Position numbers and translations under genes: made by a program. Of a stretch of 64,000 nt of DNA, positions 2,821 to 62,212 are shown piece by piece. The stretch's first letter is position 1; every line of letters begins with the position of its first letter. Source of the stretch: Bryoerythrophyllum caledonicum. Lineage: Eukaryota > Streptophyta > Bryopsida > Pottiales > Pottiaceae. The DNA is taken from the NCBI GenBank assembly GCA_963971425.1, contig OZ020523.1, positions 20,193,105 through 20,257,104 of the forward strand, read 5' to 3'. The notes under the pieces are model-generated. The model ran no database searches. It was not told where the DNA came from and saw nothing but the letters and a program-made list of their open reading frames with translations.

Positions 2821-3644
2821 GGTTGAATTTGTTTTGATGCGTCTGTGAACTACCTCGTCCTCAGAAGCTTACTTGTGATATCTACCATGCATCATCGCAC
2901 CATCCTCGTGGTTTTGCATGATCCGAACCCTGAGCTGCAATCCTGCAAGCTCCAAACCTCAGCTGCAGGATCCAAAACCTAAACTGAAATGCAATCTCCA
3001 AATCCTCGTCTGCAATCCTGCAATCTCCAAAATCCCTGAGCTGCTGCAATTCTGCAAGCTCAAAATCCTAGACTGCAATAGTGCAACCTCCAAAATCTTA
3101 AGCTCCAGGATCCAAACCCAACGCTGCAACCTCCAAGTCTTCAACTGCAATCCTGCAACCTTCAAACCCTAAGCGCCAATCCTGCTGCATTCTCGGAATC
3201 CTCACCTAATCTCCAAACCCTACACTGCAATCCTAAAATATTAAGCTCCAGGGTCCAAACCTTACCCTGCAACCTCCAAACCCAAATCTGCAACCTCCAG
3301 ATCCTCACCTAACCTCAAAGAATTAAACCGCTGCAATATTAAACCCTACCCTGCAATCTCCAGATCCAGCTGCAAAACCCGCTGCAACCCTGGCCTCTGC
3401 CCCGCCATCCACGGCCTCTCCGTCCCCATCCTCGACATAAGCTCACATCCACTACAACCATCGCCACAGAGACAACATTAACAACGACGACCACTCCACC
3501 CACGACGAGTCTTGCGGAACAAGAACACCACGGTTCCAACGTGGCACTGATCCTTGCTGAGAGAGGGGCTCGCTTGATGATGGGGTGATTTTGAGGTGGG
3601 TTCTTTGTTGGGATTTGGGCGTCCTCTGCATCCTCCTCGTCGTC
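2821..3644. promoter_or_regulatory. shared divergent promoter region of AP5B1 and PSF1
   Basis: The start codons of two housekeeping genes face away from each other over 824 bp, so this interval must hold both core promoters. About 2925-3420 is filled with a degenerate C-rich repeat built on CTGCAATCCTGCAA and CTCCAAACCCTA, with many CCCTAA-like steps. I see no clear TATA box for either gene. That the promoter is bidirectional is inferred from the layout only. Confidence 0.55.
2918..3420 (+). repeat. degenerate CTGCAATCCTGCAA / CTCCAAACCCTA repeat tract
   Basis: About 500 bp of imperfect repetition of CTGCAATCCTGCAA and ACCTCCAAAATCCT blocks with a period of roughly 25-35 bp. Short ORFs in it (for example 2918-3172) consist only of the repeat and are not genes. 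Confidence 0.75.
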
Positions 3645-5632
3645 ATGTTTGGGCGGACTGCAGCGCAGCTGGTGCGCGAGGTGGACAACGACGATCAGCA
3701 CATCCGCCGCTTCAATGTGCGTGTCTGCTGCTTTTGTTAAGGCTTTATGAGGGTTCAGGGTTTTCCGATGCGTTTGATAGTCGCGAGTTTGGACTCCGGG
3801 TTGTAGGGTTTAGGGTTTGGGGCCATTCTTTAAGACAGGGACCCTGACGATGGTTTAGGGTTTGGAGTGGTCTTTCATGAAGAAAGACAAAGAGCCTAAC
3901 TGACGATTGCTTGTGATTGCAGTATGACTTGTTCGACAAGGTCATTGCGGAGATTCAAGAGCACTTCCAGCAAGTGACGACGATCATGGAGTGAGTTCAT
4001 TTTCAGGGTTAGGGTTATGGCTAGTAAATCGATCGATGGTCAAAGTTTCTGCTAACAATTCGACAGTATATCAGAGGCATGGTTTGATTGCTTGCTTCAG
4101 GAAAATGCAGGGAGCGATTCCTCAACGTTAGGGTTATGGCGAAACGGATCGATGATGATGATAGAGCGTTCTTTTTTGCAGCTAATTTAACGAGGCACTA
4201 TGGTTATGATCTGTGATTGCTTCAGGAAAATGCAGGAAGTGAACGAGGACGGCGACTTCAACGCCGACGAGAACTACAACGGTGCTCTCATTCACCACCA
4301 AAGCATCCTCCGCAACAAGCGCTGTCTCTTAGCTTACATGTACGTCTAAGTGCCACAATATCTTTCTCGAGTTGTGAAAGTTGTGATGACAGAGTTCAGG
4401 GTGTGACTAGTTTGACGTGGTTTCCATCAGCTTAAAAGGGCTGTGTGTTCTCCACCACATTCTTCGAGATGACATTGTATAAATGCTGCGCTAGGTACCA
4501 CCGTGCAAACAGGTTGCAGCGCCTGAGATGGCAGCTGGGCGCCGTGCTGCCAGACGACGTGAAGGAGCTGTTGCATCCATCGGAGAAGGAGTTCGTCAAG
4601 AGCTATTCCGAGGCCTTGAGCTCGTACATGACAACATTGGACATCGATCTCACAGTTGTAAGCACATCTCACCTTGTTATCACTGACTACGTGAGTGAAG
4701 ATCGTTCCACCAGGTTTAGGGTTTAGGGTGTAAACTCAAGTTGTAACTAGTTTTTGAGAATGAAGAAGAAGAGTTCATGATATGTTACGACTACCCATGC
4801 TTATTATCATTAATATACTATCGATACATGTGATTGGATTGATTGTTTCATAGGATATTACTCCACCCAAGGACCCTTACATTCAAGTGAGAGTGCTGGA
4901 CAACATTGGCGAGGTGCTGTTGGGCGACCAGTCCACGTCCTTGGTGCGGAACTCCATCCATTTCGTGAAGCGAAGTGAAGCCGAGACGCTCATTTCACAG
5001 GTACAATTCTTCATTCTGCGACTGGTATCAAAAACCTTGTCTATGGTGAGCAATGAGCGTACTATACTGTGCATGAACCCTAAACCCTTTCCTGGCCTTT
5101 CACAGGTATTCATTTAATCTGCACAACTGATATTAAAATCTTCTGTGGTTATGGTGAGGAATGAGTGCAATTTCAATCTTTCCAGAGCCATTTTGTGCAG
5201 AAACCCTTAACCATAAGTAGGGTTGATGCACAAAATAGTTTGGTGCATAAACCCTAAACCCCAAACCTTGTGTGATTCTGGTGAGGAATTCTTGACAAGG
5301 AATGAGCGTAAGTGCTTTTCTTTCAGTTACCTGATCTTTCCGAAACAATATTGTGCATAAACCCTAAACCTTAGACCTTAAATTCTTGCATCTTGTTTAA
5401 GGAGGTCAACCCTAAACCCTCGCCTTCATAGCTTGTTTAGAGGAGTTTAACAGTTATGCTGAGTTTTATTCATCAAGCAAGTTAACCTAAACCCCAAACC
5501 TGGATTCTGTGGGCCTAGGTTCGGAGTTGAACCCCGAACCCTAAATCCTAAAACTCTAGCTTTCAAGTCTCAATGCTCACTAACTTGCATTTTTTGTTAT
5601 TACAGGGCCTGTTGGAGGAGTTCACAGGGTGA
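3645..5632 (+). CDS. PSF1: DNA replication complex GINS protein PSF1
   Basis: PSF1 is one of four GINS subunits in the CMG replicative helicase (nucleus, replication initiation and elongation). There are six exons: 3645-3716, 3923-3990, 4226-4339, 4495-4657, 4854-5000 and 5606-5632. Introns follow GT-AG, phases agree throughout, and the total is 591 nt (196 residues plus stop), the normal PSF1 size. Recognisable family blocks are MFGRTAAQLVREVDN at the N-terminus, YNGALIHHQSILRNKRCLLAY, LPDDVKELLHPSEKEFVKSY, DLTVDITPPKDPYIQVRVL and FVKRSEAETLISQGLLEEF at the end. The start is the first ATG and matches the family start. Intron 2 contains a copy of the exon 3 splice site, and intron 5 is crowded with AAACCCTA motifs. 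The gene looks intact. Confidence 0.95.
4005..4243 (+). repeat. tandem duplication of intron end plus exon 3 start in PSF1
   Basis: Two adjacent copies, about 4005-4122 and 4125-4243, share GTTAGGGTTATGG, ATCGATG and then GATTGCTTCAGGAAAATGCAGG. The second copy holds the acceptor actually used at 4225. The first carries a decoy acceptor followed by the first bases of exon 3, after which the frame would soon close. Confidence 0.7.
5070..5560 (+). repeat. cluster of AAACCCTA (telo-box-like) motifs in PSF1 intron 5
   Basis: At least seven AACCCTAA or near copies occur, at about 5079, 5203, 5250, 5358, 5408, 5488 and 5536. They are separated by unique sequence, so this is not a telomere array. 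The motif is the plant telomere unit and also the known telo-box regulatory motif. Its function here is not shown. Confidence 0.6.
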
Positions 5633-8233: not shown

Positions 8234-9600
8234 TTGATGGTACAAACACGTAAGAAAAACTACGGGTCATCAAAGTATTCATCGGTATCCGATAAGGTAT
8301 ATTTGGAGGACATTGAAGACGAAGAACTTGAAGAAGGTGCATATACGCCCTTCTTTGCGGTTGATCCAACTAAACCTTTGGTGTTAAGTGTCTTTGACAA
8401 CGTGGATGACCACGGTGGTGGATCCATGGTTCGAGATCGATACTCAGGAAGGGCTGAAGGTGTAGCCTACAATGGTTGAAAGACCAGATTTCGATCATGG
8501 CGAAGAACAATGAATCAACGTAACCCGTTGTTTAATGATTGGTAGGCCTTCGAGCAATTGCCAAACCATTTGAAATTTGAGGCATTGCAAGCATATGATG
8601 TGTGGTTTAAAGACCACATAGAAGATCTTGATGTTGTTGAAGACTACTGGACGCGGCGCGTGGAGTTGGTTACAACATTGAAGGAGGGTGCTGCTATTCC
8701 TGCAACTAGAGCATTGGATGATGATGATGAGAAAGTCTCTACAGGTGGAGATGTAGCATGGACAATAAGGCTTCAAGGTGCAACAACAAGAGCTCGTAGG
8801 GCTAGAAAGATTGCTACCTCAGGGACAACAATTACATTCATATCCAGATTGTCTAGAGCATTCACAAAGGCGATAGCCACTATTGGACCTCCGCCTTATT
8901 TTGATCCGTAGGTATTCTTTCAACACTTGGAGGTTGAATTTGGTGGGATAAGACGAGATTGTATGTGCCACATTCAAGATTTCAAAAAGGAAGTTAGAGA
9001 TACTCCAAGTATTATGTATGCATGCCTTGCAAGGTTTGCTTGTGAAAGTAGAGATGCATTTACAGAGCGACAACTGGAGGAGATTTATATGGAAAAACAA
9101 GACAAGAAGATCCGAGAGATGGCATATTCTCACATGCTGTTGTTGAATGGAGGTCGAGCCACCTTAGATCAAGCATTTGCAATAGTTTAGCAATTTGACC
9201 GAGGGTTGTGTGTAGAAGAAACTCGAAGGTTATCATCAATTATGACAACAACAACAACAAGTCAACCTAAGGCTGCTACTGGAGGTTCAAATAAAGGCCA
9301 TGCAAATCCAAAGCCATCTAAGCAAGTTGCAATGGCTGCAGAAGAGGCAACACCTATAAATCCGCATGTAAGGTGTTGGAGATGTGGAGAATTGGGCCAT
9401 AGTAAGAAGGATTGTCCAAAGCCTTCTGATAGTACATATGGTGTAAGTGGAAGGAAAGGAAAAATAGCTGACAAGGGTCAACAAACAAAGCCACAAAAGT
9501 CAAGGCAAGTCTGTAGTTATCGTTTTGGTTGGATTGGAAATAAACCCAAAGCACCAAATCAATATAGGTGGATTCGTTCGCGGGGAAAGATTGTTTATAT
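8234..9600 (+). mobile_element. gag region of the Ty3/gypsy fossil
   Basis: Gag-like acidic N-terminal part, a helical capsid-like middle, and a CCHC zinc knuckle (CWRCGELGHSKKDC) near 9374-9415. A second knuckle-like C..C...GHT...C pattern lies at about 10301-10355, beyond an inserted block. Fossil, not functional. Confidence 0.75.
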
Positions 9601-9606
9601 GAATGC

Positions 9607-10297
9607 CACTATGTTATTGTCACGATTGATTACACACTTGCGTCCTAACTTCTCTTAACAATTATCAACACTCAATCACTCTCTCTTACATCACTCTAAA
9701 CCTAACATTTCCAATTCTCTTCCTTCATGATCTCATAATCATGTCAATTTCTATTTTCTTCACTGTAATCACAGTACAGTATACTCAATTATACGTGATT
9801 ATCTTCCCGTAATCACTTTCAACAACCAATCCTTTCACAGAGATTACAATCTCTTCACTTTCATAATTCCATTCTCTAACTTTTCTATCGTCACAATTCT
9901 CACACAATGCTCATAAACTTCATCTCCAATCACACAATCACAGTTCTTTAACTCCAATTCCATTCATACTTAATCTTAATCACAATCCTACAAAAGAAAA
10001 TAACAAAATCAAAAGAAACAAAGAGGTAGCACCAAGCTTGCCCCGGCTTACGACTATCACAGTCTGGCCCCGAATCCATCTTCCACAAAGTCTTTATCCA
10101 AAAAAAACCGAACCTAACTTCCAGATTCCAAACGTCACATGAGTTTCCGCTTTTTAACCAACTTTTCACATAACTTCCCAAACTTACCAGTAAACTACAA
10201 AACTAACTTGCTAACTTCCGAAACTAACCAATTCTAATCCGCATGTGAACACAAAAACTAATTACACATTCTACAAAGTCTACCAATTCTCCCCCTA
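9607..10297. mobile_element. possible insertion inside the gag fossil
   Basis: About 690 bp of C/A/T-rich, G-poor sequence of different composition separates two zinc-knuckle-like parts of gag. A short AATGC occurs on both sides (9602-9606 and 10298-10302) and could be a target-site duplication. The block contains no ORF and I do not recognise its family. TGTCACG at 9618 resembles the start of many plant LTRs, but no matching end was found. Confidence 0.35.
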
Positions 10298-35959: not shown

Positions 35960-36859
35960 CATTTTACAAAATAAATACATAGATGGAGCAAAAAAAAATA
36001 TGGAAATGTGGAAATATCATACATGTTAGTAGATTTAGTACATAATTAATTAACAATGGGCTATTTAGAATTTCTTCAAAAGTTAATAGGGTTTAGGATA
36101 ACTGATATCCATCTTATGCCAAGCTCATACCCCTATAATACATAGGTGATATCCATGTAATACCTAGGCAATACCGATTGTGACCAAGATACTTTGAAAT
36201 TGGAAAAAATAAATATTGCGAAAATACATGTAGTTAAATACATGTCATTAGATGTTGTGAAAATTGCATCAATTGAACAATGAGCGAAACAAGAATATAC
36301 AATTGGTAACTACATTGAAATAACATATGTATAAAGCTGTGGGCAGTCCCAAATAAAACACAATAGATAGACAATTGTAATGAAAATGTCAAGAAACCAC
36401 ATGCCTCATGAGAACACAAAACAACAACCAAAGTAGAGAAATCAAGATTCCTCTGCTAAAAAGTCATCTGAGCTATCCTCCTGGATACGAAGCGAACTAC
36501 TATTCAACCCACTAGCCCCTGCCACTCCGTCTATGAACTGCTCTAAGGTAGACCTACATCGAGGTACTTGTGAAACACGTGGAGGAGATGGAAATGCAGC
36601 CATCGAATTTGCAACACCTCCATCTCAAGGATTCATACGATACGAGCACCAGGAATGCTAGAATGTGAGCAGTGAGCAGTGAGCAGTGAGCAGTGAGTAG
36701 TAAGCAATCTATTTTTTTCAGTTGGGCACCCTATAACCACAGATTTGGGGTGATTTACAAGAAACAATTTTACATTGTGACCTATTTCTGTGGTATGAAA
36801 AAAGATCAAAATGGGAGAAAGTTTGATTAAAAACCCGGAAATAATCTATTTGGAGGATA

Positions 36860-36915
36860 TTTGGATGAATGTAGATAGATGGATGAATGTAGATAGATGA
36901 ATGTAGATGAATGAT
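36860..36915 (+). repeat. GATGAATGTAGATA microsatellite
   Basis: Three to four copies of a 14-18 bp unit GATGGATGAATGTAGATA in tandem. Confidence 0.8.
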
Positions 36916-36984
36916 TGCTCAGCTTATAGTTAAAAAAATATAGCAACTTTTAAAATATTAGTAAAAAAAAGAAAAAAAAAAAAA

Positions 36985-37130
36985 AAAAACTAACCGAGGG
37001 GCTCCTCAGTACCGAGGAGGGCCCTGAGGGCGAAACCAAAAACAAAAACAAAAAAACAAAAAAACAAAAAAACTAGTCGAAGGGCTCCTTGGTACCGAGG
37101 AGGGCCATGAGGGCGAAACCACAAAAAAAA
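36985..37130. repeat. two copies of a palindrome-bearing unit in poly(A) surroundings
   Basis: Copies at about 36992-37036 and 37071-37121: GGGCTCCTNGGTACCGAGGAGGGCC, then TGAGGGCGAAACCA. The core CTCCTCGGTACCGAGGAG is (nearly) a perfect palindrome. Each copy is flanked by runs of A and AAAAAC. A third copy lies at 38905-38960. Confidence 0.8.
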
Positions 37131-37980
37131 TAAAAAAATAAAATCGTATACGGTTCTTCTATTTTCAGAGCATTTCTTGACTCTACCTTCACTATTCTTT
37201 CCTTTTTGTTAAATAACTGCTTACGGTTACTTTTGAGGACACTCTCATTTCACATTATAAATATTTTCAAATTTGGTCAAGTAGGTACATTTTACCATTC
37301 CTTGTTACTAATCATTGAACCTAACTCATATCTAAGAAGATCAAACACACCATATTTGATATCCTTGTCCCTTTTATCATGTCACAGTCTTTGAATCACT
37401 AGAATATGTCACTATTACCAGTTTTCATGACTTTGTTTACTATTCTTTACTCATTAACAGTTTGTTCACAACAAGTTGATCTAACTTGGTTACACAAAAC
37501 TTATTGTAGATAGACTCTTGCAACTATCTACAGATTACCTCATGCACATCATTCAATCACACTTGTAGTGTATACTAAAATCAAGAATATATTTTCTTAT
37601 TTAGTTCACAAATACAAGAGGACAAGGTTACATAAAATGGTTTGGTTCCACAAGCTTGGAGCTGGTTGTAGAAGCCCATAAGGTAGAGACCGTCACCTGT
37701 CCCCATGCACAACCACAACAAAAAATTGAAGTTGGTACGTAGACGAGGTGTCTTAAGGTCTTCCCACAGTTGTTATCCTTTTCACATGTGCTAATAACCA
37801 ATCACACAAACATGCAATACCAAATTTTTGCAATCAAACCCTAATCATATAAAGTTTCTGAACTTGAGATTGATCTGGTTGAGACATAGTATGGGACAAT
37901 GACGTGTTAGCATTGACAGTGTCCATGAATTAGTTTCTCCTTCAATCACCAAGTTGGACCAAATCACTACATCAACTTGG

Positions 37981-38125
37981 TCCAGACATGCAAATAGCTC
38001 CAGTCTGTTAACAACTTGAAACTTGCTCTAGAAATGCAAGCACTTCTAGCCTGTAGACTCTTAATAATAACAACTTGAAACTCGCTCTAGAAATGCAAGC
38101 ACTTCCACTCTGTAGATTATTAACA
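37981..38125 (+). repeat. 60-bp tandem duplication
   Basis: Two close copies of ACAACTTGAAACTYGCTCTAG, AAATGCAAGCACTTC, CTGTAGA (about 38011-38069 and 38070-38123), preceded by a partial third copy (CAGACATGCAAATAGCTCCAGTCTGTTAAC). Confidence 0.8.
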
Positions 38126-38897
38126 ACTTAAAAGTTGTTGTCACGTCTAGTATACAGACATGATGTATGACTAGCATACATGCATTGTGCAACAGTGAGA
38201 CATGATATATGACCACACATGCACTGTACAACAATAAATCATGACTAATTTACAGAATATCACTAATGATACTCAACTTTAATTTCCACTTAGTTTTGAA
38301 TCACCTTGCAAGTTCCAAGTTACTATCAGTGAAGTAGTTATGGTCCATCAATGACTTAACCACCACTTAGTACTGATTTTATTTGATTTGCGATATTAGT
38401 GAATCTAATCTCGAGATCATGCTTATGTTGGTGAACTACCTTGAATAAATGTCCAACAACCTTCATGAGGTCATATTCTTATTCAAAGGAAAGAAGGAAA
38501 ACTTATTGCCCTATTTCATGTCAACATGATCACATATATGCATCCACTAATTTATAGAGTGGTATGTATGTGTATTGACAAGTATTTTGTGGATTTAGTC
38601 AAGGTGCGAGCACCAAGGCTTATTTTTACCACTAACCAAATATTATTGTATCTATCACCAGTTATCCCATTGTATGTCCTCCCTAAATTAAGTAGAGGAG
38701 GGAGGGCGGGACTTATAATTGTCTTATTTTGGATAGATGTAGGGTCTTAAGTGTAGATTTTAATAAACCGTACACAAATATGATTAAGACATACCACTTG
38801 TCTTTTTAGTACAAAAAGTGTCTTTATTTCATGTCAACCAAATGATCTATTATTAATCTCTCATTGCCTACGTTGTTTAGCGTAATGCAAAAAAAAA

Positions 38898-38962
38898 AAA
38901 AAAAAACGGCTGAGGGGCTTCTCGGTACCAAGGAGTGCCCTGAGGGCGAAACCAAGGGAAAC
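38898..38962. repeat. third copy of the palindrome-bearing unit
   Basis: GGGGCTTCTCGGTACCAAGGAGTGCCCTGAGGGCGAAACCA in pieces, again directly next to a poly(A) run (38888-38906). It is slightly more diverged in the palindrome than the copies at 36992 and 37071. Confidence 0.75.
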
Positions 38963-38989
38963 CAAAAAAAGAATACAAAAATACAAGCA

Positions 38990-39080
38990 CGGTGGACTCT
39001 TTATCTCCTTCGACAAGGATGACAGCACCCCCGCCCGAGTTGTTGATGGTAAGGTCGTCAACAATGTCGGCCGACTTCAT
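38990..39080 (-). pseudogene. possible last exon of the ParB-methyltransferase gene
   Basis: A short minus-strand coding-like stretch (SADIVDDLTINNSGGGAVIL) lies one intron-length beyond the methyltransferase motif-I exon. It is acidic and Gly-rich, plausible as a C-terminal tail. Support is weak. Confidence 0.25.
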
Positions 39081-39184
39081 AAATAAAGTTTCACATCATT
39101 TTTAACTCAGAGAATAATCAAACTTTGTAAACTACAATATAAAATCATTTATCGAAGGGGAAGAGAACTTACTTACAAGTTCTC

Positions 39185-42100
39185 TTGCAAGCAGTCTTCA
39201 CCTCCGGCTTGTCGTCATCGAGCTCCAATGGGCGCTTGCAAGAGCCCTCCTGCTCTCGCGGCGCTACTCTGAACTATACCTCTACAGTGCGAGGAATTAA
39301 AGGCTGGAGGACTTCTTCTACCAAACCTGAGTCCTCCTCTAACGCCAAAATGTGGCGCTTGAGGGCCTTGCAAGCCTTGATACATGCCCCTATATAATAG
39401 AAACAACTAAATTGATATTAGCATTCGAACGTAAGAAAAATGATTGAATCTGAAGTAGTAAGAAAACGAACCGGTAGACGTTGTGAGGTCCAGGGACAAT
39501 GTCATCCTCCTCGGTGCAAAGGTCAATAAGAGCCTCCATGAGATTGGAGGACTTCTCTCGCGCTCCTTGCCATGGCTGGCTAGTGGTACCTCGCATTGTC
39601 AGCGTCTCTTGTGTGATCAGATTAGTCAAATGACCATATGAGGACAACTGGATCCCCTCCAATAACAACTCCATCCTGTCATTGAAAGAAAAATGGACTG
39701 CTGGCTCGAACTTCCTCACATAGCACTTCATTATGAAGCACTTGTGAGTGCGTCGGGGATGGCCCTCGCGCGAGAGAGACAAACCGTTAATGGCAAACCA
39801 TTTTGTCTCCTCGCGAAAGTCTGCCCACTTTGCCCAAACATGAAGCTCATTAGAGATGAGCTTTGAGTCCGGGTAGAACACAATGAGCGGCGCCCCATTG
39901 CAAAGAAAAGCCTCTTCCAGCTCAAAACACCGGTGAATCCAGGGGGATTCAATCTTATCACCTCTCGACAATTGAGTTGGAAGTTTGTTCCAAACCAGCA
40001 CGTCAACGCCGCCTTCAATTCCTGGGACGGGCAAATTCTCCGGGACGTCCATAAGTACCATGTCCACCAAGCCATCATCGCAATCTTGACCATGATGGCG
40101 CCGTATCCGCGATCCCGAATGCGCCTTCATAAACTGCCGTATCTCATACCAAATTGAGGGTCATGTCAGCCTCTTCAGCGATATTGTTGAAGAGGGTCAT
40201 AATGTTGAAAGCGCTCTAACACAATACCTCCACTTCAACAATAGACTCCACATCCTCCACCACCAGAATCAAGTAGATTTTCTGCAGAGGCTTCGCGACA
40301 AAGGTGGAGGGCAGACTGCTTGCTGAAGGAAAAATGCCTTGCATTGGTGCCATTGCAACAGGGAAAGTAAATGCAGCAACCCCTCCAAGCTGAGCAATCA
40401 GCTTCTGAGGCCCCCCCTTTGCCACCAACGTTGCCAACTCTTTGTTCCTCTCTTTCGTCTGCTTCTTCATAGCCCTCGTGATCTCATTGTCCACCCTCAA
40501 CGCCTCCTTCTCCGCCACCTTGACCGCCGCCCTCGCCGCCCTCTCCGCAACCTTCGCCTTCTCTTTTTCTGAGAGTGATGCGTCGACCGTCTCAATCATT
40601 GTAGTGACAGATAAAGGAAGCATGTCATCATCTCCAGAAAGAACAACTATAGAATCACAGTCCCTACGAAGCTAAATCTCCTCTCCCGGGGTAGGATCGG
40701 CATACGTCAACTCCAAGAACCAAAGGCATTGTACCAAGCGACGACGAGAGAAGCGCCGCCTCTGCTGCTCGGTAAAGATGCAATGTACTGAAGTAGGGTC
40801 CGTCCACACCTTGAAGCGGATTGGTAGCTCACCCGGCTGCAAGGCTCCTTTTGCAACAAGTTCCCTCCAGAAGTATCGAAGCACCGCCCAATGCATGGTC
40901 TTCTTACAACCCTCTTGCTTCAGTAACTCCTCTGACTTGGAGAAGGCGCCCTTCCTTCCAATATGGTCCTTGAATGCCATGGCCCATAACATAATGTTCC
41001 ACGCCTCCATCTAAGAATCAATATCTTCAATAGGATTAGGAAGCCCTTCATTTTTGAAGACAACCTTGTCTTCTTCAACAATCGCGGAGTATTTCTTTCC
41101 AGTTTCCTCCTCCAACTACCATAGACTACAAATTGTTAGATACAATTAAAAATTAGCTGGATGATTGAAATTGAATAGACAATAGGAATTAGGAGAACTC
41201 ACTCCAGCCCAAAATGCAGTTGTAACAATCCATCTCTGAAGACTCGTGTCTGAAGCCGGCGATTTTGAAAAATTGAACTCCGCCCTACTACGCTTGCTCA
41301 TGTTCCACCATTTGCACCATCACCCCTTGAACCTCCCAGCCACCTTCGCCGTGCAGAACAGTTGAAGCTTTTCAAGTCTCATTTTTGGCTTAGCCTAGTA
41401 AATATCAAAATTACGCATAACCTATACTACAGACACATATAGAAAGAATAAAATGCTTGTAGACAATTAGTCAAAACATATCAAGTTGAAAAACATAAAC
41501 ACGAAAACTATAAAACTTGAAATCAACATACCTCCTTAAAAAATTCCTCGCCGTTCGTTGGATTTGCAATCGCCAACATCCGGGTGAAGGTAGTCTAACA
41601 CGCCGATTTCTTTTTCTGCACGGCCTCCATGTAAAGTTTGACGAACTTAGTTGGACTACCAAGACGGTCAACACCAACGCCGGTGACGAGGCCATCCTTA
41701 TAGTTTCTAATACACTCCTCCTAGGAGGCAATAATCTCACGCTATAAAATCAACAACAAAAATTAAAGTACGTGAGAGAAAATATATTTCAAATACATTG
41801 TGTATGAAAAGCAATGGAATTACAAGGATAATTTGAATATGTACCTCAAACATGAGTTTTAAGAATGCATCGTACAACATATGATACCATTTCTTCATTG
41901 CCCTCTTCCCCGACTCGTGCATGCTTACCACGTAATTGTCTTCGCTAATCAAGCCCTTGAGCGGCTCAAGCCTCAAAGTCTAACAATCCAAAATGTTGGA
42001 TCCTCTTCAGGTTCTGTGATATGTGCCAAGGTACGTGATCTGCCTCCTTTTGCCTAGAAATTAAAAACGATTTAACTAAAACCTATCTATAGATAATTCA

Positions 42101-42640
42101 ACCGAAATACTCAATATGAACATGACAACAATGACAACCCACAATATAGATAAATTACTAAATAAAACAAAATGAGAATACTCCTTACTTGATACGATCA
42201 GTCATAACATTGAGAAGTATATTACGGTTTGCTAAGGTGGCTCCAGAAGCACCGCCCTCACCAGTGAATGAAAGATAAAGTCGGTAGAGTGCATCTGGGA
42301 TATCAACTCCATCCATGCAATATGGCGGTGGTTACTATCCCAGACAAAAAATACTTGTTGAAGAATGCTCGCAACTCCGGCCGACTCTGCAACCTTGCCT
42401 CAAACTTTTTATCCTCCAATCAAAGTGCAGGCCGATTGACTCACTCCGGGGGTAACACTTCATGTTCCATCAATGAAAAATTCTTCATGGCTACGTAAAA
42501 GCAGGCAGAGCCGGGTCGATATCCCTTCACAAACTCTGCCTTCAACTTTTCCACGTCGCTCCTCAGAGGAAGTTGCACCTCAGTTATGGGGAGCATGCGG
42601 CACAGTGGAACAAGGAGCTCCTCACTTATAACGGATATTT
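39185..42640 (-). pseudogene. ParB-like domain plus N4/N6 DNA methyltransferase-like gene, decayed
   Basis: Multi-exon minus-strand gene with clear exon candidates at 42640-42189, 42053-41845, 41741-41532, 41395-41203, about 41120 to 39475, and 39389-39185, mostly with GT/AG borders. Exon 1 reads like a ParB/Srx-type domain: MLPITEVQLPLRSDVEKLKA, FVKGYRPGSACFYVA, then FFVWDSNHRHIAWM, which matches the DGNHRxxA box. The middle part is basic and coiled-coil-like (KEKAKVAERAARAAVKVAEK near 40550-40500). The C-terminal part follows the order of a permuted amino-methyltransferase. A DPPY-like position reads DMVLMDVPENL (about 40070). A helix and strand FELEEAFLCNGAPLIVFYPD follow. Then comes a motif-I-like block split by an intron, DIVPGPHNVYR with ACIKACKALKRHILALEEDS. 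The key catalytic residues are not conserved and the frame is interrupted several times, so this copy is dead. The domain calls are by motif, not by search. Confidence 0.55.
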
Positions 42641-42900
42641 AACAAAATGTAGACAAAACGATCAATTGTGGACCAAATTAGATACTTGTGACGACCCTAA
42701 ACACCTACTAGATTGTCCTAAAATATACAATGTGTATCGGTGAAGGATATTCAAAATCTATAGAGGATTGTTAAAATGTTGCGTGACTTCTCTAAAATTT
42801 GTTGTTCTACCAAAATTGCAACAAATTTCACAAGTTTTTTTTTAAAACAATTTTTTTTCCCCGTATTATGAGTTTTTTATGCTCGCCGCTCACTGCTCAC

Positions 42901-43970
42901 AAGATAGCGTCGTTGATACCATACTTGGACTTTGGATGCGTTATCAGTTTTGAAACATGGAAGAAAAAAACATATTCAACATTATGACAGACTATCCGGC
43001 GTGTACTATGATCTACAAAGTTCGTACAGTGGGCTAATTTTACAACAACGTTTCATACAACAATAAATTCATTGTAACAGGGGGCATGGATCTAGAACAA
43101 AAAATGGCTCACTACAACGGCCATGTGGTATGACAACAACATCCATCAAACCAAATTATCACGTCGCATAACATCCATTCAGAATAAAGCATGTGAGAAT
43201 TAGATGCATGTTAGAACTAGATGAGTAATGTCATCCTTTAATAGAACCATTCGTCCAACATTTCCATCTAACAGCCTTCAGCTACTTAATATAGCAGCTC
43301 TATGTATAACAGACAGACCCAACAGGGTTGTTGAAAAGATTCTAGTACTAGCATAATCTTATGCTATTACAAATCTTATGCTAGTACTTTGAAAGTTAGA
43401 AAAATCAACGAAATTACTTGAGTCAAATTGATTCCAAACAATTATCATTTTCTTGATAATTCTTTTTTGGACAAAAAATAAAAGAATTTATGGTAAATAA
43501 ATAAATTTTCTAAGTAAAGATTTTCAAGGGATAGAAATGAGGATTGCACTCTTTGAGCTATGTCATGAAATAAAAGTTGAATTGTATTCTTTGAGTAACA
43601 AAAAAATTATATCAAAAGTATTTTCAAATATGAGAGCTGGATGTAGCTATAAAATGATTTTTAATGTTATCTATACCATTTATGCATGTATAGGCAGGGA
43701 ACGTTCAACTTATCGCAGGAGTAAAGAAAATGCCAGTAAATATAAGGATTGTTAAAAAATAAAAATAACACATTCTATCCATCACAAAAGCTCATTCTCT
43801 GATCTCCATTAATACCACTCGGAAGTTAACAAAGAACCAGCGCTTTTATTTTCATTCGCCAGATTTCCTTCTACCCACTGATTTATTATATCAAAGAATC
43901 TAAAGAACATAAAAAAATCCATTGTAAATCAAACATAAGGTAGCCCGGAAACTGTTATACAGAGCGATCA
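42901..43970. other. AT-rich spacer with no gene seen
   Basis: No coding resemblance in any frame. It separates the candidate element from the LINE relic. Confidence 0.5.
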
Positions 43971-54293: not shown

Positions 54294-57105
54294 ACTGTCC
54301 CTATCTACTATCTAGCGTTTCCACAGCCAAGGGAACGAGCTTGCAAAAATCAGCGGGGAAAGAAGACCTTGTTGAGCTTCACTCTAATCCGACTTTCTGA
54401 AATGACTTAAGAGGTGTAGAATAAGTGGGAGCCCTCAAGGCTTAAGGTGAAATACCACTACTTTTAACGTTATTTTACTTATTCCATGAGGTGGAGGTGG
54501 GACTCTGTCCGTGCTTCTAGTCTTAAGGGGCGCTTTTGGCGCCCCGATCCAGGTGGAAGACAATTTCAGGTGGAGAGTTTGGCTGGGGCGGCAAATCTGT
54601 TAAAAGATAACGCAGGTGTCCTAAGATGAGCTCAACGACAACTGAAATCTTGTGTGGAACAAATTTAGTGTAAAAGCTCATTTGATTTAGATTTTCAGTA
54701 CGAATACAAACTGTGAAAGCATGGCCTATCGATCCTTCAATATTTTGAAATTTGAAGCTAGAGGTGTCGAAAAGGTTACCACACGGATAACTGGCTTCTG
54801 GCAGCCAAGCGTTCATAGCAACGTCGCTTTTTGATCTTTCGATGTCGGCTCTTCTTATCATTGTGAAGCAAATTTCACCAAGTGTTGGATTGTTCACCCA
54901 CCAATAGGGAACGTCAGCTGGGTTTAGACCGTCGTGAGACATGTTAGTTTTACCCTACTCATGCTCGGTTTTAATCCAAGGTTTTAATCCAGAAGTCCGT
55001 ACCGGAAACCCTATCATCGCCCTTGACATCAACATGAAGATGACATGTCCAGATGAACGTCTACGTGAACACAACATTCTCTCCATGTTTCGAAACCGTG
55101 ACCCTAATGCACTCTGACGTCAACTACAATGTCAAGCTCCTCAAATGGACGTCTCTTTGGACAAGCTGACGTAAACACATACTTCTAAGAAAGAAGCCAG
55201 AATCGTACCTCCAAGATTGCTCCCTCAGAGAGCCGCTCTGTTTGCCTTCTTCAGAGCGATCATCATCGTCTTCCTCGTCCTCTGAGACCATCAGAACAAC
55301 CCTTCTCTTTCGTGGAGGAGAAAGTTCACGTGCGGGAGCCTTACCTTTCAGGCTTGCTGTGACTCGCCGGTCCTCTTGAGCCTTTGAACGACGCTCCCCG
55401 GCTGCGCGCGTGTGTCTTCCCAGGGACGGAGCCTCCTCTTCCACATCGGGACTTCTTGAAGCTTGCAATTCTTTCCGCTTCCCACCGTGTAACTGACGTC
55501 GAGGCATTTCTGAAATTCGGTCTCTCCAGTGCACAAAAAAACCTCCTTCCGCCTGCAACACATGACAACCGCACAAGTGACATCTTAGACACAACAAACT
55601 TGAAGCAAGGAAGACCTCCGCGGGATACTCTTGTTCGTGCCGACGTCACGGGAAACCTTGGAAACTTGTAAGCGGCCTTCTGATCAGGGTTAGAAGCATT
55701 TGTCCAGCATCATCACCACTAACGTAATAGTGCCATCCACATTGAACATGCAATTTCCGTGGAGATCATTGTGACATCACTTGAAACTAACCACATCTGT
55801 AGGAAACCCGAAACCCAAAACTTAAAAAACCCTAGTACGCGTGATTTTTTGGTACCTGGGGAAATTGATGAACGCAAAGCAATTGTATTGCAACCTAGTT
55901 GGGTGCAGTGCGCGAAGGAAGTACTAATGGCAAGTACGCAGCATGCTGCAAGAAGGTGCAGCCACAACTTGGACCTCAAGTTCAGAACGACCTGAACGAC
56001 CTGCTTCGGAGCGAGCTAGAGCTTCGTCTGGAGTCACGCTACAAGCTGGTTCGCAGCGAGCTGGAGGATCGTGCTGGAGCACCTTGCATCTGCTGGTTCG
56101 GAGCGAGATTATAAACAAGAGCGAGCAGGAGCTTCGTGCTGGACCTCCAGGAGGTGGTTCGGAGCAAGACGATGTTTCGGAGCGACCTCAACCACCTCGT
56201 TCGGAGCGAGATGAGCGTGCGGAGTGACCTGAAGGAGCTGGTTCGGAGCGAGCTCGAGCCATGCCCCTCTGCGTAGTTTGGAGCTCGACGTGGACCTGGA
56301 GATTTGGGCTGCGACTTCAATTTTGGAGCGACCCTCTTCGAGTTCGGAGGAAAGGACCACCACCAGGGACGGAGCGAGGAAGGTAGAAGAGGGAGTACGT
56401 AGTTTGCATCCGCAGAACCAACCGAGGGGGTCCTTTTGAGAAACGGCGGCTGGAATAAACACATACCCAAGACTCCTTACCCGCTGGAGGCCTGCACAAT
56501 ATCCGGGTCGGAAGCTACTCCACATAGAGCTACGGTAGGCTACCCGCGCTTCACGTTAGAAGATGTACTCACGATTGGGAAGCATGCCCAAATGGTTGCC
56601 TACAAACCCTGGAAAATTCTTCACGTCTGTAGTGTCACCAGAGAAGCCAATGTCTAGACTTTTACTAGTCGATGACTCTCTGTGAGGGGACTAATTTTGG
56701 TGCGCCTCTGCCAGTATGTCACAGTGAGGTGGAAGAGCATCATCAATAGCGTAGAAGTGACATGCTACAACCTGACCTTCGGTGACTGACTTGGAGGGGG
56801 AATGGTGTACCGCAGGTTGTAGTGCATCATTTTTACAGACAAATCCTCGTCACACAGAGCCATTTCGAGCATACCCATCAAAAATTTCATGCCGTTCTGC
56901 TATAGGGTTTCAGTATGGCCAGAGATTAATGCATCAAGATGAATAGAAGGAGCGAAGAGTTTGAAATCACCTGATTGGTGGGTGGATTTCCTCCATCAGT
57001 CTCAGGCGTGCAAGGTTGCGACGGGCTTTGGTGTCGGTCACGTCTGTGCAAACGAGAGCTCCGTCGGGCCACCGGCGCGACCAAAATTTTAGTCTTGGGC
57101 TTCAT
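51533..57105 (-). CDS. CACTA accessory protein (TNP/Transposase_24-like), seven exons
   Basis: Exons are 57105-56971, 55552-55209, 53868-53594, 53375-53095, 52829-52119, 51904-51755 and 51577-51533. All borders are GT/AG and all phases join, giving 646 codons, with one in-frame stop in exon 6 (after VKAIKQTT). In order the protein has a basic N-terminus (PVARRSSRLHRRDRHQ), an acidic Ser/Glu-rich linker (MVSEDEEDDDDRSEE), and a central block (GWERQPRSLRKNLLRRLYT, then NEKFLGPIITKGLITLRFRT and KKEYWDDMVAERATEAAQAK). The central block has the layout of the plant Transposase_24/TNPA-like proteins. A coiled coil follows (EIEEVRSRVTELESSLTRLG), and the C-terminal tail is basic. Such proteins bind the subterminal repeats and assist the TPase (family knowledge). 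Intron 2 holds the 25S rRNA fragment, and intron 1 holds a GC-rich repeat. It is nearly intact. Confidence 0.7.
54186..54236 (+). repeat. 18-bp tandem repeat at the junction with the rRNA fragment
   Basis: About 2.5 copies of AACAGGAGCAGGATCAAA, ending a few bases before the start of the rRNA-derived sequence. Confidence 0.85.
54238..54964 (+). pseudogene. 25S (LSU) ribosomal RNA gene fragment captured in the CACTA element
   Basis: The sequence follows the 3' third of plant 25S rRNA almost base by base. ATGCCTCATCATCTAATTAG and TGACGCGCATGAATGGATTA are followed by the CCACTGTCCCTATCTACTAT stretch, CACAGCCAAGGGAACGAGCT and GAAATACCACTACTTTTAAC. Then come GGAGAGTTTGGCTGGGGCGG, GATAACGCAGGTGTCCTAAG and GTGAAAGCATGGCCTATCGA. 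The peptidyl-transferase-centre strand is GGATAACTGGC at 54784, followed by GCCAAGCGTTCATAGCAACG and CACCAATAGGGAACGTCAGC. It stops at TTTTACCCTACTCATG, before the sarcin-ricin loop. Scattered substitutions and a shortened expansion segment show it is a diverged pseudocopy. It lies in sense orientation on the plus strand within intron 2 of the minus-strand accessory gene. The minus ORF here (54942-54523) is the antisense of rRNA. Confidence 0.93.
55985..56260 (+). repeat. degenerate GGTTCGGAGCGAG tandem repeat in accessory-gene intron 1
   Basis: Roughly six imperfect 35-50 bp units containing GGTTCGGAGCGAG followed by AGCTGGAG- or AGCTTCGT-like words. GC content is higher than in the rest of the element. 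The open frames on both strands consist only of repeat. Confidence 0.7.
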
Positions 57106-57850: not shown

Positions 57851-60800
57851 ATGGCAACTTGTATGAGTTTTGGTTCCGAGCAGCGTGGCACTACAATCCG
57901 TATAGCTCAAGATGGACGCACACTACGTCACATCCCTGTGGGTGACTTGATTTTGCACACGGAGTTGCGAGTGGCCACAGAGAAGAATGTGCATTCTTTC
58001 AGGTGCCCGTGTCGGGATTGCAAGGGTGGCCGTCGCAAAACCATCCAAGTCATACGGCAACACCATGCAACGGTGGGTCGAGATCCTTTTTTAAACAGGT
58101 TCCTTCTAGGGGAGGACCCCCTTGAAGGCTATCCGGCTGGTGGTATTTGGGTTGAAGACGTTGCATTTGATGACGATGTCGTCCGACAGGATGTTACAGA
58201 TGACGTAGTCGACAATGCTGACGTTTTTGAAGACGTCAACCCTGACAACAGAAATACTGAACCTACTGAAGATCCTGAATTTCCTCCACTGGATGAGCTC
58301 CACGAGGTGCAGCGCCAGGTAATGGAGGCCTTGGACAGAGGAGATACACTACACGAAGAGGCAGATGCGTCACACAACGTAGGCGATCAAGATGATGGTG
58401 CCAATGATACTGTGGACGGGTTAGAAGAGTTGTATACCCAAGCTACCACTGCAGTGTATCTTGGTTCGAGAGAAGCATCGTGTCAGCCACTATCATCATC
58501 ATGAACATGTGTACGGTGTTCCACGTCAGCAACAAATTCACTGATGAGTTGTTTCGATTTTTGTCTGTTGACTTACTCCCACCAGGTAACAAATTGCCTC
58601 GAACCCATTATGAAGCCCGCAAGAGCATTAGAAGACTTGGATTGCATTACAACAGCGTGCACGCATGCCGAAATGGTTGTATTCTATATGAAGGTGATTA
58701 CGAAGCTATGGATTCTTGCCCTAAATGTAGCACCTCTCGATGGGCAGACGAGACAAACTACATTCCTTCAAAGGTCATTCGACACTTTCCTTTGATTCCA
58801 AGGTTGAAACGAATGTGGAGGTCGTCAGAGATAGCGCGGATGCTTACGGGGTACACTAAATACGTTAGCAACGACGGTGTCATGCGTTCAGTGGTGGATA
58901 GTCCAGCGTGGAAGCACATTGACAGTGACGTCGCGTTCAACAACTTTGGGTCTGAAGTTCGTAACATGAGGCTTGCTCTTGCTTTAGATGGTGTGAATCC
59001 ATTCAAGTTAAACAACACCAATTGGTCGACGTGGCCGGTCTTGATCTTGATATACAACCTGGAGCCATGGTTTGTCACAAAAAAGTTTTTCATCTCTTTG
59101 TGCATCTTGATTTCAGGGAAGCACTCACCGAATGCTGCCAGTCTTGACGTTTTCATTCGTCCCTTGTTGAGGGAGCTCCAGGAACTGTGGCATGGTGTTC
59201 CGGCACTTGACTTTTCTCAACCGGAACACAGTCGTACTTTCACCTTACGTGCCGTACTCATGTGGACCATCTCAGATTTTCCAGCTTACGGACTCATTTC
59301 AGGCCTTTGTTGCAAAGGTTACAAGGGTTGCCCTTCTTGTGGACCAAATACTGAAGCGAGAATGGCCAAGACAGGTGACGTTCTTGCAAACAGAAGAACA
59401 AGAGGCTCAAAGATTGTGTACGGAGGCATACGTCGTTATTTGCCTAGGCACCATCCATACCGTCGGAACTTGAGATTTAATGGGAAGGTGGAGAACCGTG
59501 AACGACCAACTCCACAGACAGGAAAAGATAGTATTCGTCATGCTGCGTGGCGGCAATCATACCTAGATTTAGGTGGAAAAGAGAATGGTCCAGATGATCC
59601 GGTCCACGTAACAGGAGTGAAACGGCTGTGTGCATTATATGAGCTGCCATATTGGGAGGTAAGGACTTCTGGACTTTGCATCTGTAACAGTCTTGCGGCG
59701 TTGCTACGTTCCTTTAAACATGCGAAATTAGATTTAACGTCCATACTGATGTTGGTATAATCAATTTTGACGTCCATCTTGACATCACAGAGGACGTGTT
59801 TTTTGAGGGAACGATGTTAGTCTGGCAAGGATATGCCACAATGCCATAATGTATTCTATTGTGATTGCTTCATGTCCTCATGCGGCACTTGTTGGAGAGA
59901 CATACCTTGGATGTCATGCACTGTGAGAAAAATTGTGTGAAAATATAGTGAAGACATTGTTGGGAATGAAGGACAGTCCCGGAAGTCAAGTCGACGCTCA
60001 AGAATTGGGCATTCGGGAAGAGATATGGCTTAAACCTCCACGACGGCGTCAAGATGAGTATTACATGCCACAGGCCCCTTTTGTTTTGAAGCCACATGAA
60101 CGCAAGGAGTTTGTAGAAATTATTTCTAATATTCGAACCCCTTCGTATTACGTTGGTAGCATTCACAAGCGATTAGAAGATGGCAAGCTACAGTATATGA
60201 AGACACATGACTATCATGTCCTCATGCAATAGGTACACTAAGAACTTAGTCTCTGCATGCATTGTAATGAAGTTATAAAAATGTAGAGCCCGCCACGTAA
60301 TTAATGGTGGACGTCACCATAGACATAGGAGGAGAGAGAATCATGACACTTTAAATGTCAAAAACAAGGACACTAGCCACAGCGGACGTTATATAGGATG
60401 TTCATGTTGGCGCAGTAGGAGACGTCTGTGTCATGTTGTTATTACTAAATCTTGAATGTTGTTATTACTAAATGTTTGGTTCTTGGTGGAACATGTTTTG
60501 TAGATTCTCCCAATGGCAGTTCGGAACCTTCTGGATGACAATGTCCGCTTGGCTATCATAAAAATGAGTAGAGTATTCCAGAGACTTTGTGCGAAGGAGG
60601 TACGATTGGCGGAGAAGGATGACATGATGCACGATGTCATCATGGCCACATGCGTATTGGAGAAGGAATTACCAACTATATTTCTGGACATCATGATGCA
60701 TCTGCCAGTGCATTTGGTGGAGCAACTGTTCAATTGCGGTCCTGTGCACTGTCGGTGGATGTATCCAACAGAGTGATACATGAAAACGCTTAAGGATTAT

Positions 60801-62212
60801 GTCAGAACATTTTCGCATCCAGAAGGTAGCATGGCTGAAGGGTATCAAATGGATGATACCCTTGGATTTTGTACTGAGTACATGCGTCACTACAGAGGAA
60901 CCGTACATCGCATATGGGATCCGGAAGAAGAGCCTGCAATGATTGATGAGATTCTTTGTTCCAAGTCGCAGCGAAAGCGGAAGATGCCAGATGAGTTTCG
61001 AAAATACGCACATGCCTTTGTACTGGACAATGTAATGTGTTTGGAGGAGTGGCGTCAGTGAGTGCCAAACCCTAAGTTGTTTGTCTATAATTCTTCATGA
61101 TTACATATGTGGTACGTAGTAATCGATAAAATTTCTCCTTTCCATTGTTTCAGTCGACGCAGTTCAAAGCATAGCGGGTTGAGTAACATCTTCATTCTGA
61201 CATGTCCATCTACATCACTTCAACAAATGCGTTTGTTTGTATGTCATTCTCGATATTTGCTTAGACGTCAGTGTGTTATAGTGCATATCATACATGACAT
61301 AGTCTGATCCCAGATGACGATGGGCATCTGGAACTCTTTCATCATAACACCTCATGGAAATTGATGTGTAGGAAATATGTAAGAGCAAGAGGGCAGCGGT
61401 GGGAAGAGAGGGAGATGTACCGAAGACAATTTCGCCGTCGACATCCTACAACGGCCATGCGGTACCCTGTTCACTTTTTTGACTTGCCTCCTTTTGCATC
61501 GTGGGTGAGTGCCCGTGTAAATGCTCTTCGGGACGCTGGTGAACACGTACATGAGGATGTCATACAATATGGGCAACCTCCAGAGCGGTATGCTGTGTCA
61601 CATCGTCAAATGCATGCCTTTAGCATGCACTTCCGTGTCCGTAGTGCAGAAGGAGGACTTGTCACACATGATTCTTGTGTGGTTGCCTCATTCAGCCGAC
61701 AACTTCGATGGGGGCTTCGTAATGGCCGACCCATAGAGAGAACCGATGACTAGATAGGATACATTGAAGAGATCCTGGAGCTCGACTACCGAAATCATTG
61801 CACCACTGTACTTGTATGCGATTGGGTTCGAGGAAACCAAGATAGTCGTTTTCCAAATGTGCAGAGGGATAGATATGGATTTCCTATGGCAAACTTCAAC
61901 CACATGGATGGTAGGATTCATGCTGAGTCCTTTGCGTTTCCATTGCATTGTCAACAAGTGTTCTTTTCTGACGACCCGCATCGGCGTGGGTGGAAGATTA
62001 TATGCCGCACGGATGTGAGGGGAAGACGTGGTGAACTCCAAATCAACCAATCCATCCCTATTGTGACTGAAGTGGGAAATGATGAAGACTTCGCTGGTCT
62101 GCAACCGGAACTGTTGGTCACGGAGCCAGTGAGAGAGGCAATTGCAGATGGTGGAATATACATCTCAGCACCATCAGAGGCTTCCATGCATCAGCAAGCA
62201 GAAGCAGCATAG
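57851..62212 (+). pseudogene. CACTA TPase (tnp2, DUF4218 and DUF4216 domains), slightly broken
   Basis: The transposase of the CACTA element. The start chosen is the ATG at 57851 (MATCMSFGSEQRG); the frame is open slightly upstream. Coding blocks are 57851 to about 58500, about 58490-59658, about 59880-60234, 60504-61057 and 61372-62212. Good GT/AG borders are at 59658, 60504, 61057 and 61372. The N-terminal part has CPCRDCKGG and an acidic linker. The tnp2 core has LHYNSVHACRNGCILYEGDY, CPKCSTSRW, the catalytic-type LALALDGVNPF, DFPAYGLISG and GCPSCG. The DUF4218 block runs from ILPMAVRNLL through HLPVHLVEQL to RWMYPTE. The DUF4216 block has ILELDYRNHCTTVLVCDWV and FNHMDGRI. Two frameshifts (near 58490 and 59930) and three in-frame stops (near 60232, 60777 and 61751) make it inactive, but the decay is recent compared with the other elements here. 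Confidence 0.88.

Follow-up and report, generated by a model that had tools for sequence, protein, structure and literature searches.

A decayed, intron-bearing gene on the minus strand

The window (the whole 64,000-nucleotide stretch of Bryoerythrophyllum caledonicum DNA that was analyzed) contains the remnant of a gene on its minus strand, extending from about 42638 to 36448. In tblastn, the 1136-residue protein of an intact homologue, L002, aligned with the window in nine collinear pieces, each 47-74% identical, which start at 42620, end at 36448 and lie within residues 65-1135; so ordered an alignment is not due to chance. The gaps between pieces take in residues 194-207, 961-967 and 1041-1069, and a targeted N-terminal search of the window with residues 1-64 returned no convincing match. 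The features of the remnant and its surroundings are listed in Table 1.

Table 1. Features of the gene remnant and of the transposon-related ORFs in the window
Feature	Position	Strand	Remarks
Exon 1 remnant, ParB/Srx-like motif region PITEV...DVEKLKAEFVKGYRPG...FVWDSNHRHIAW	42238..42620	-	residues 65-193; 2 stops, 1 frameshift; tblastn
Exon 2 remnant	41845..42061	-	residues 208-277, two frames
Exon 3 remnant	41529..41741	-	residues 278-348, 2 stops
Exons 4 and 5 (first part) with the intron between them	40165..41421	-	residues 348-737, 5 exonic stops
Charged linker in the exon 4/5 piece	near 40219-40671	-	
Permuted methyltransferase-like domain	39495..40160	-	residues 739-960; 64.9% identity to L002; frame changed relative to the preceding piece
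Motif IV equivalent DVPE	40038..40049	-	equivalence to DPPY from profile alignment
Motif I equivalent DLTTSTG	39470..39490	-	not in the frame of the preceding ORF, adjoins intron
Exon 6, GACIKACKALKRHILALEED... and basic tail	39172..39390	-	residues 968-1040, 1 stop
Last exon, first part, SRPTLLTTLPSTTRAGVLSSLSKEIKSPPC	38981..39076	-	aligned by eye to L001/L002
Nested ~2.33-kb insertion in last exon, A-rich repeats	about 36650..38980	.	10-bp near-duplication at both sides
Last exon, remainder	36448..36645	-	residues 1070-1135, 1 stop; tblastn E 1.4e-11
EnSpm/CACTA-type Tnp2 transposase ORF, broken; possible partner	58408..59757	+	PF02992 E 6.6e-61
ORF with DUF4216 match	61754..62209	+	PF13952 E 1.8e-6, 28.8 bits, cut-off 30.6

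A preliminary description of this DNA had read 39185..42640 as a dead copy of a mobile gene joining a ParB-like domain to an amino-methyltransferase-like domain. Every peptide that it quoted was found on the minus strand: PITEV...LKAEFVKGYRPG in the ORF at 42441-42638, FVWDSNHRHIAW in the ORF at 42232-42399, DMVLMDVPENL and LEEAFLCNGAPLIVFYPD in the ORF at 39390-40160, and ACKALKRHILALEEDS at 39390-39172. The assigned span covers part of the remnant and ends too early, because a nested insertion splits the last exon and the gene continues past 39185 to about 36448. The insertion is flanked by ATACGAGCAC (36640-36649) and ATACAAGCAC (38981-38990), which are identical at 9 of 10 bp. An A-rich repeat of ~97 nt with a GC-rich core occurs within it in three copies (36968-37147 and 38884-38980), and these repeats may be a short retroposon. 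Six GTGAGCA-type heptamers lie near the insertion edge at 36665-36706. Inverted repeats with such heptamers at 36657-36685 and 42880-42908 were considered as the termini of an element and rejected because the left arm lies within the nested insertion.

The exons of the copy contain 11 stops and at least four frameshifts, of which exons 1 and 2 have one each and exon 5 has two (near 40162 and before motif I). The copy is therefore dead, as had been described. The intron reported to split a VYR sequence downstream of the DPPY-like motif is present, and VYR itself is a frame-shifted reading of motif I, DLTTSTG.

An intact homologue encodes both halves in one protein

Two related loci, L001 and L002, were located by a scan of genome contigs; both belong to the bin AVDCRST_MAG81, which carries a cyanobacterial label. 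Both are taken as contaminating eukaryotic DNA because they bear introns, and they are probably moss DNA contaminating this public cyanobacterial bin. L002 is a complete gene of seven exons (552 to 4565) separated by six introns of 81-133 bases, all GT..AG. Its splice sites were chosen manually, those at the 3' end by reference to the reading frame that L001 and the window also keep. Both halves belong to one polypeptide because L002 encodes a single 1136-residue protein, which bears out the earlier placement of the two halves in one intron-bearing eukaryotic gene and excludes their being separate genes. The predicted layout of the intact protein is a DGNHRH region, a long middle of no recognised fold, a charged linker, the permuted methyltransferase-like domain and a basic tail. 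The L002 query used for the Pfam, NCBIfam and phage searches was a 1043-residue version with about eight incorrect end residues and no C-terminal tail; the domains are unaffected.

When the methylase-like ORF (39462-40160) was used as the query of a protein search, 22 homologues with E no higher than 0.01 were returned over 21 listed contig sizes, and no precomputed Pfam domain is recorded on any of the 22. The exon-1 region gave 16 protein-search matches, and an alignment of that region raised the number to 44 at E up to 10 with the earlier ones included. One of these relatives (P0043) comes from the moss Ceratodon purpureus, where it is listed as a hypothetical protein. Three listed contig sizes (219580, 17102 and 312168) recur in the match lists of both halves and are read as the same contigs carrying both. 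The viral contigs held no confirmed relative of either half. Two of the methylase-half homologues, P0010 and P0001, are on contigs of equal listed size (521512). P0010 is a divergent relative (45% identity) with a motif I, DLTAGTG, that is nearer the classical form.

The N-terminal half resembles ParB at one motif

The main ParB/Srx sign in the N-terminal half is the DGNHRH motif, which corresponds to the DG.HR box. At the G-x-(R/H)-R box, 38 of 50 relatives fit the WD.NH pattern, with R replaced in two; the 12 outside the pattern are P0045, a variant, and 11 that are partial by eye. With matches allowed up to E 10, none of 37 relatives matched Pfam ParB_N (PF02195), in a search in which HMMER discards most weak matches. 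One of the 37 touches a ParB C-terminal model (E 0.12), and L002 has no ParB match in NCBIfam. PHROG 1033, a ParB-like family, was the commonest PHROG match (9 of 37 relatives, best E 0.05). A tblastn search of phage sequences with this half returned no match. PDB profiles gave four weak rows, or six with more sequences, and the best of these (alignment A5, positions 94-145, against ribosomal protein eL24, PDB 9ygm) was taken as chance at its marginal E of 0.0038.

Profile-profile alignment with hhalign was calibrated by shuffling. Against 18 ParB domains the N-terminal half scored 12.66, and 43 of 150 shuffles did as well; with the insert cut it scored 12.21 (33 of 150); global mode was worse, with 82 and 92 of 150 shuffles as high. 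Eight IbrB-like ParB domains gave 15.02 (47 of 200 shuffles as high), or 16.98 with the insert cut (13 of 200). The same N-terminal alignment scored 17.5 against an unrelated methylase set. In the controls, every ParB reference was recovered by the rest at 39.7-189 (P1 ParB at 45.6), and the IbrB-like set recovered the canonical ParB set at 94.5.

The ParB domain of the preliminary description is thus not established: ParB_N is unmatched in 37 relatives, the hhalign scores fall within the shuffled null, and the positive signs are DGNHRH and the weak PHROG matches. There is a considerable possibility that the N-terminal half has no ParB/Srx domain and that DGNHRH is convergent. The missing Pfam matches, the scores within shuffled controls for both ParB sets and the 17.5 against methylases all point this way, as does the ability of the same method to detect true divergent ParBs. 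Against convergence, the best local ParB match landed on the DG.HR box each time, PHROG 1033 led the PHROG matches, and on visual inspection the elements follow one another as in ParB. A putative ParB identity is still taken as likely for the N-terminal half.

The C-terminal half is a permuted methyltransferase-like domain with DVPE aligned at motif IV

The spliced L002 domain matched Pfam N6_N4_Mtase (PF01555) with E 1.1e-5 and 25.9 bits, slightly short of its curated cut-off of 26.7 bits. The match spans profile positions 165-217 of 221, which is the motif-I end. The family was also matched by 8 of the 12 members of A1 (E up to 10); the best, P0010, aligned with profile positions 9-193 at E 5e-4. 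Phage methylase families matched the L002 domain with a best E of 9.7e-5, and its best NCBIfam match was CcrM (E 8.5e-5, far below that model's own cut-off). Phage sequences gave weak matches in tblastn with the methylase half (best E 0.09), and PDB profiles gave none. The hhalign comparison with nine phage methylases extended from DVPE to motif I over 170 columns, with a probability of 94% and low confidence mid-alignment. For the domain alone, a stretch of 42 columns at the motif-I end scored 61.1; the best of 60 column shuffles scored 23.7. On these hhalign results the methylase relationship is secure near motif I and, toward DVPE, collinear and weaker. The motif order is IV followed by I, as in permuted methylases. 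The C-terminal half is therefore permuted amino-methyltransferase-like, as had been proposed, on the evidence of hhalign and a Pfam match just under the cut-off.

Motif I has the form D-(L/I/M)-T-x-(S/G)-(T/I)-(G/S) in 15 of 25 sequences; the other 10 fall short of it or, in the window copy, are out of frame. It resembles DPFxGSG with T replacing F, and both the motif and the stretch downstream are retained (DITASTG, ASIKACKALKRHILALEED). The catalytic tetrapeptide was readable in 22 of the 25 sequences, as three end short of the site, and is DVPE in 14, DVPK in three, NVLE in two, and DVHE, NVPE and DMPE in one each. The first residue is D in 19 of the 22, and the third is P, likewise in 19. 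The fourth place is E in 19 copies and K in three and is never aromatic, in contrast to the nine reference phage methylases, which all have Y; the catalytic pattern (D/N/S)PP(Y/F/W) is accordingly absent from the 22 readable copies. The equivalence of DVPE to DPPY comes from the phage-methylase profile alignment, in which per-column confidence is low, and the Pfam matches miss DVPE. In active enzymes the flipped base is stacked against the aromatic residue of DPPY; METTL14, with EPPL, is an inactive analogue.

Related proteins in algae, phages and bacteria

Proteins of this kind are known from algal transposons. Dinatale et al. 2025 describe a 1104-residue ParB-like and N4/N6 methyltransferase protein carried by the Ectocarpus transposon Sola1-1_Ec32 (PMC12477816). 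According to that description the element is a 21.5-kb DNA transposon with the ParB-methyltransferase gene on the strand opposite the transposase, and green and red algal transposon proteins of the same type are cited there (PMC12477816). Compared by description, the plant protein is likewise large (1136 versus 1104 residues) and eukaryotic, with a ParB-like region and a methyltransferase domain. It differs in being a plant protein in a land-plant-type genome, may differ in its methylase tetrapeptide, DVPE, and would be carried on a transposon by inference.

Phage ParB-N6_N4_Mtase fusions (Lactobacillus CV244, Evtepia NatCom_11697 and Streptococcus Javan117) share the arrangement of an N-terminal ParB and a C-terminal permuted amino-methyltransferase. 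They are 388-422 residues long with an intact DPPY and a significant ParB_N match, whereas the plant protein has a middle region of ~550 residues and its gene has introns. Motif IV also precedes motif I in the beta-class amino-methyltransferases (PF01555; CcrM), whose QKP...VLDPF.GSGT stretch is resembled by the plant REKS...L..LIDL...DDIVLDLTASTG. Unlike them, the plant protein has DVPE for DPPY and TASTG for FxGSG, and it falls just under the Pfam cut-off.

The published algal transposon ParB-methyltransferases weaken the earlier statement that such a writer on a plant mobile element would be unusual. Searches of an open-licence library yielded no report of a ParB-methyltransferase transposon protein from a land plant. 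The protein kind is already known from the algal transposons; the additions made here are its occurrence in a plant and the DVPE tetrapeptide.

Purifying selection and the possible activity of the domain

L001 and L002 were compared over 883 codons, which gave a dN/dS of 0.108 (bootstrap 0.081-0.141) at dS 0.30. The ratio is 0.047 for residues 758-1000, the methyltransferase-like domain, and 0.585 for the C-terminal tail, which is nearly unconstrained; L001 has a stop at codon 1104. The compared introns are 85-88% identical. Coming from one sequence pair, the ratios show past constraint along the lineages and are no measure of present activity.

The selection on the domain is what would be expected if, despite DVPE, the protein were an active 4mC or 6mA writer that methylates amino groups in the DNA of its own element. 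The retention of motif I with the stretch that follows and the prevalence of D and P in the first and third places of the tetrapeptide agree with this, and for the brown-algal protein 4mC or 6mA activity is predicted (PMC12477816). The E or K that replaces the tyrosine of the phage references in every readable copy argues otherwise, and we regard an active writer as quite unlikely. The preliminary assignment as a 4mC/6mA-type writer is doubtful because the DPPY aromatic is absent from 22 of 22 readable copies. Given the DVPE tetrapeptide, we think it more likely that the plant form retains the fold to bind a cofactor or DNA, or has altered chemistry, than that it makes ordinary 4mC or 6mA.

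Genomic setting and possible mobility

The broken Tnp2 ORF lies ~16 kb from the gene remnant on the opposite strand, and DUF4216, matched below its cut-off by a second ORF farther along the plus strand, usually accompanies Tnp2. A search of the window for CACT-type inverted termini bracketing the gene and Tnp2 produced no pair that stood out. The ORFs of L001 and L002, both short contigs, include no transposase that could be seen by eye.

These observations bear on whether the gene is carried by a transposon at all. It could instead be one of a family of host genes, in mosses or related plants, that was duplicated and pseudogenised, the EnSpm sequences being nearby by coincidence in TE-rich DNA, and the copies in relatives could be host paralogues. 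The failure to find termini shared by the gene and the transposase, the selection on L001 and L002 and their ORF content are consistent with such a family. We consider it rather unlikely in view of the many matches across many contigs and the precedent within a brown-algal transposon (PMC12477816). The mobile eukaryotic version postulated earlier is borne out as to the eukaryotic, intron-bearing gene, and its mobility is likely on indirect evidence, with no shared termini found in the window.

Our preferred reading, to which we assign a probability of roughly 55%, is that a repetitive plant gene has left a decayed copy in the window and that its intact product is an algal-type transposon accessory protein, with the fold more likely kept than ordinary 4mC or 6mA made. 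We infer that the accessory protein would attach to repeats within the element that encodes it and would act at them through the methyltransferase-like domain. A candidate target is present in L002: ahead of the start codon (position 552), positions 1-397 form a tandem array of 3.7 copies of a ~106-bp unit. The units centre on a palindrome like TGGGTCTCGGATCCGAGACCCA, which is near-perfect in three and degenerate in one. In the window, where the copy lacks its 5' end, the nearest matches to this palindrome have 8 mismatches in 22 positions. A more specific and distinctly tentative proposal is that an ancient methyltransferase domain in a land-plant transposon-borne protein lost its base-stacking aromatic residue (DPPY to DVPE), remains preserved by strong purifying selection all the same, and became a repurposed SAM- or DNA-binding module, perhaps non-methylating, that would recognise its own element, possibly at the palindromic array upstream of the L002 gene.

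If the accessory-protein reading is true, self-targeting DNA-modification-like transposon proteins, in print for algae, extend to land plants, and the land-plant form has a diverged active site still under selection. The intact L002 gene and the candidate binding array would make self-marking of DNA by a transposon testable at the bench.

Two other features were noted in the window. A eukaryotic large-subunit rRNA fragment lies on the plus strand at 54348-54963 (Rfam RF02543, model positions 2392-3002 of 3401), and an ORF at 9191-9655 encodes a zinc knuckle (PF00098, E 2e-6) and is gag-like by eye.
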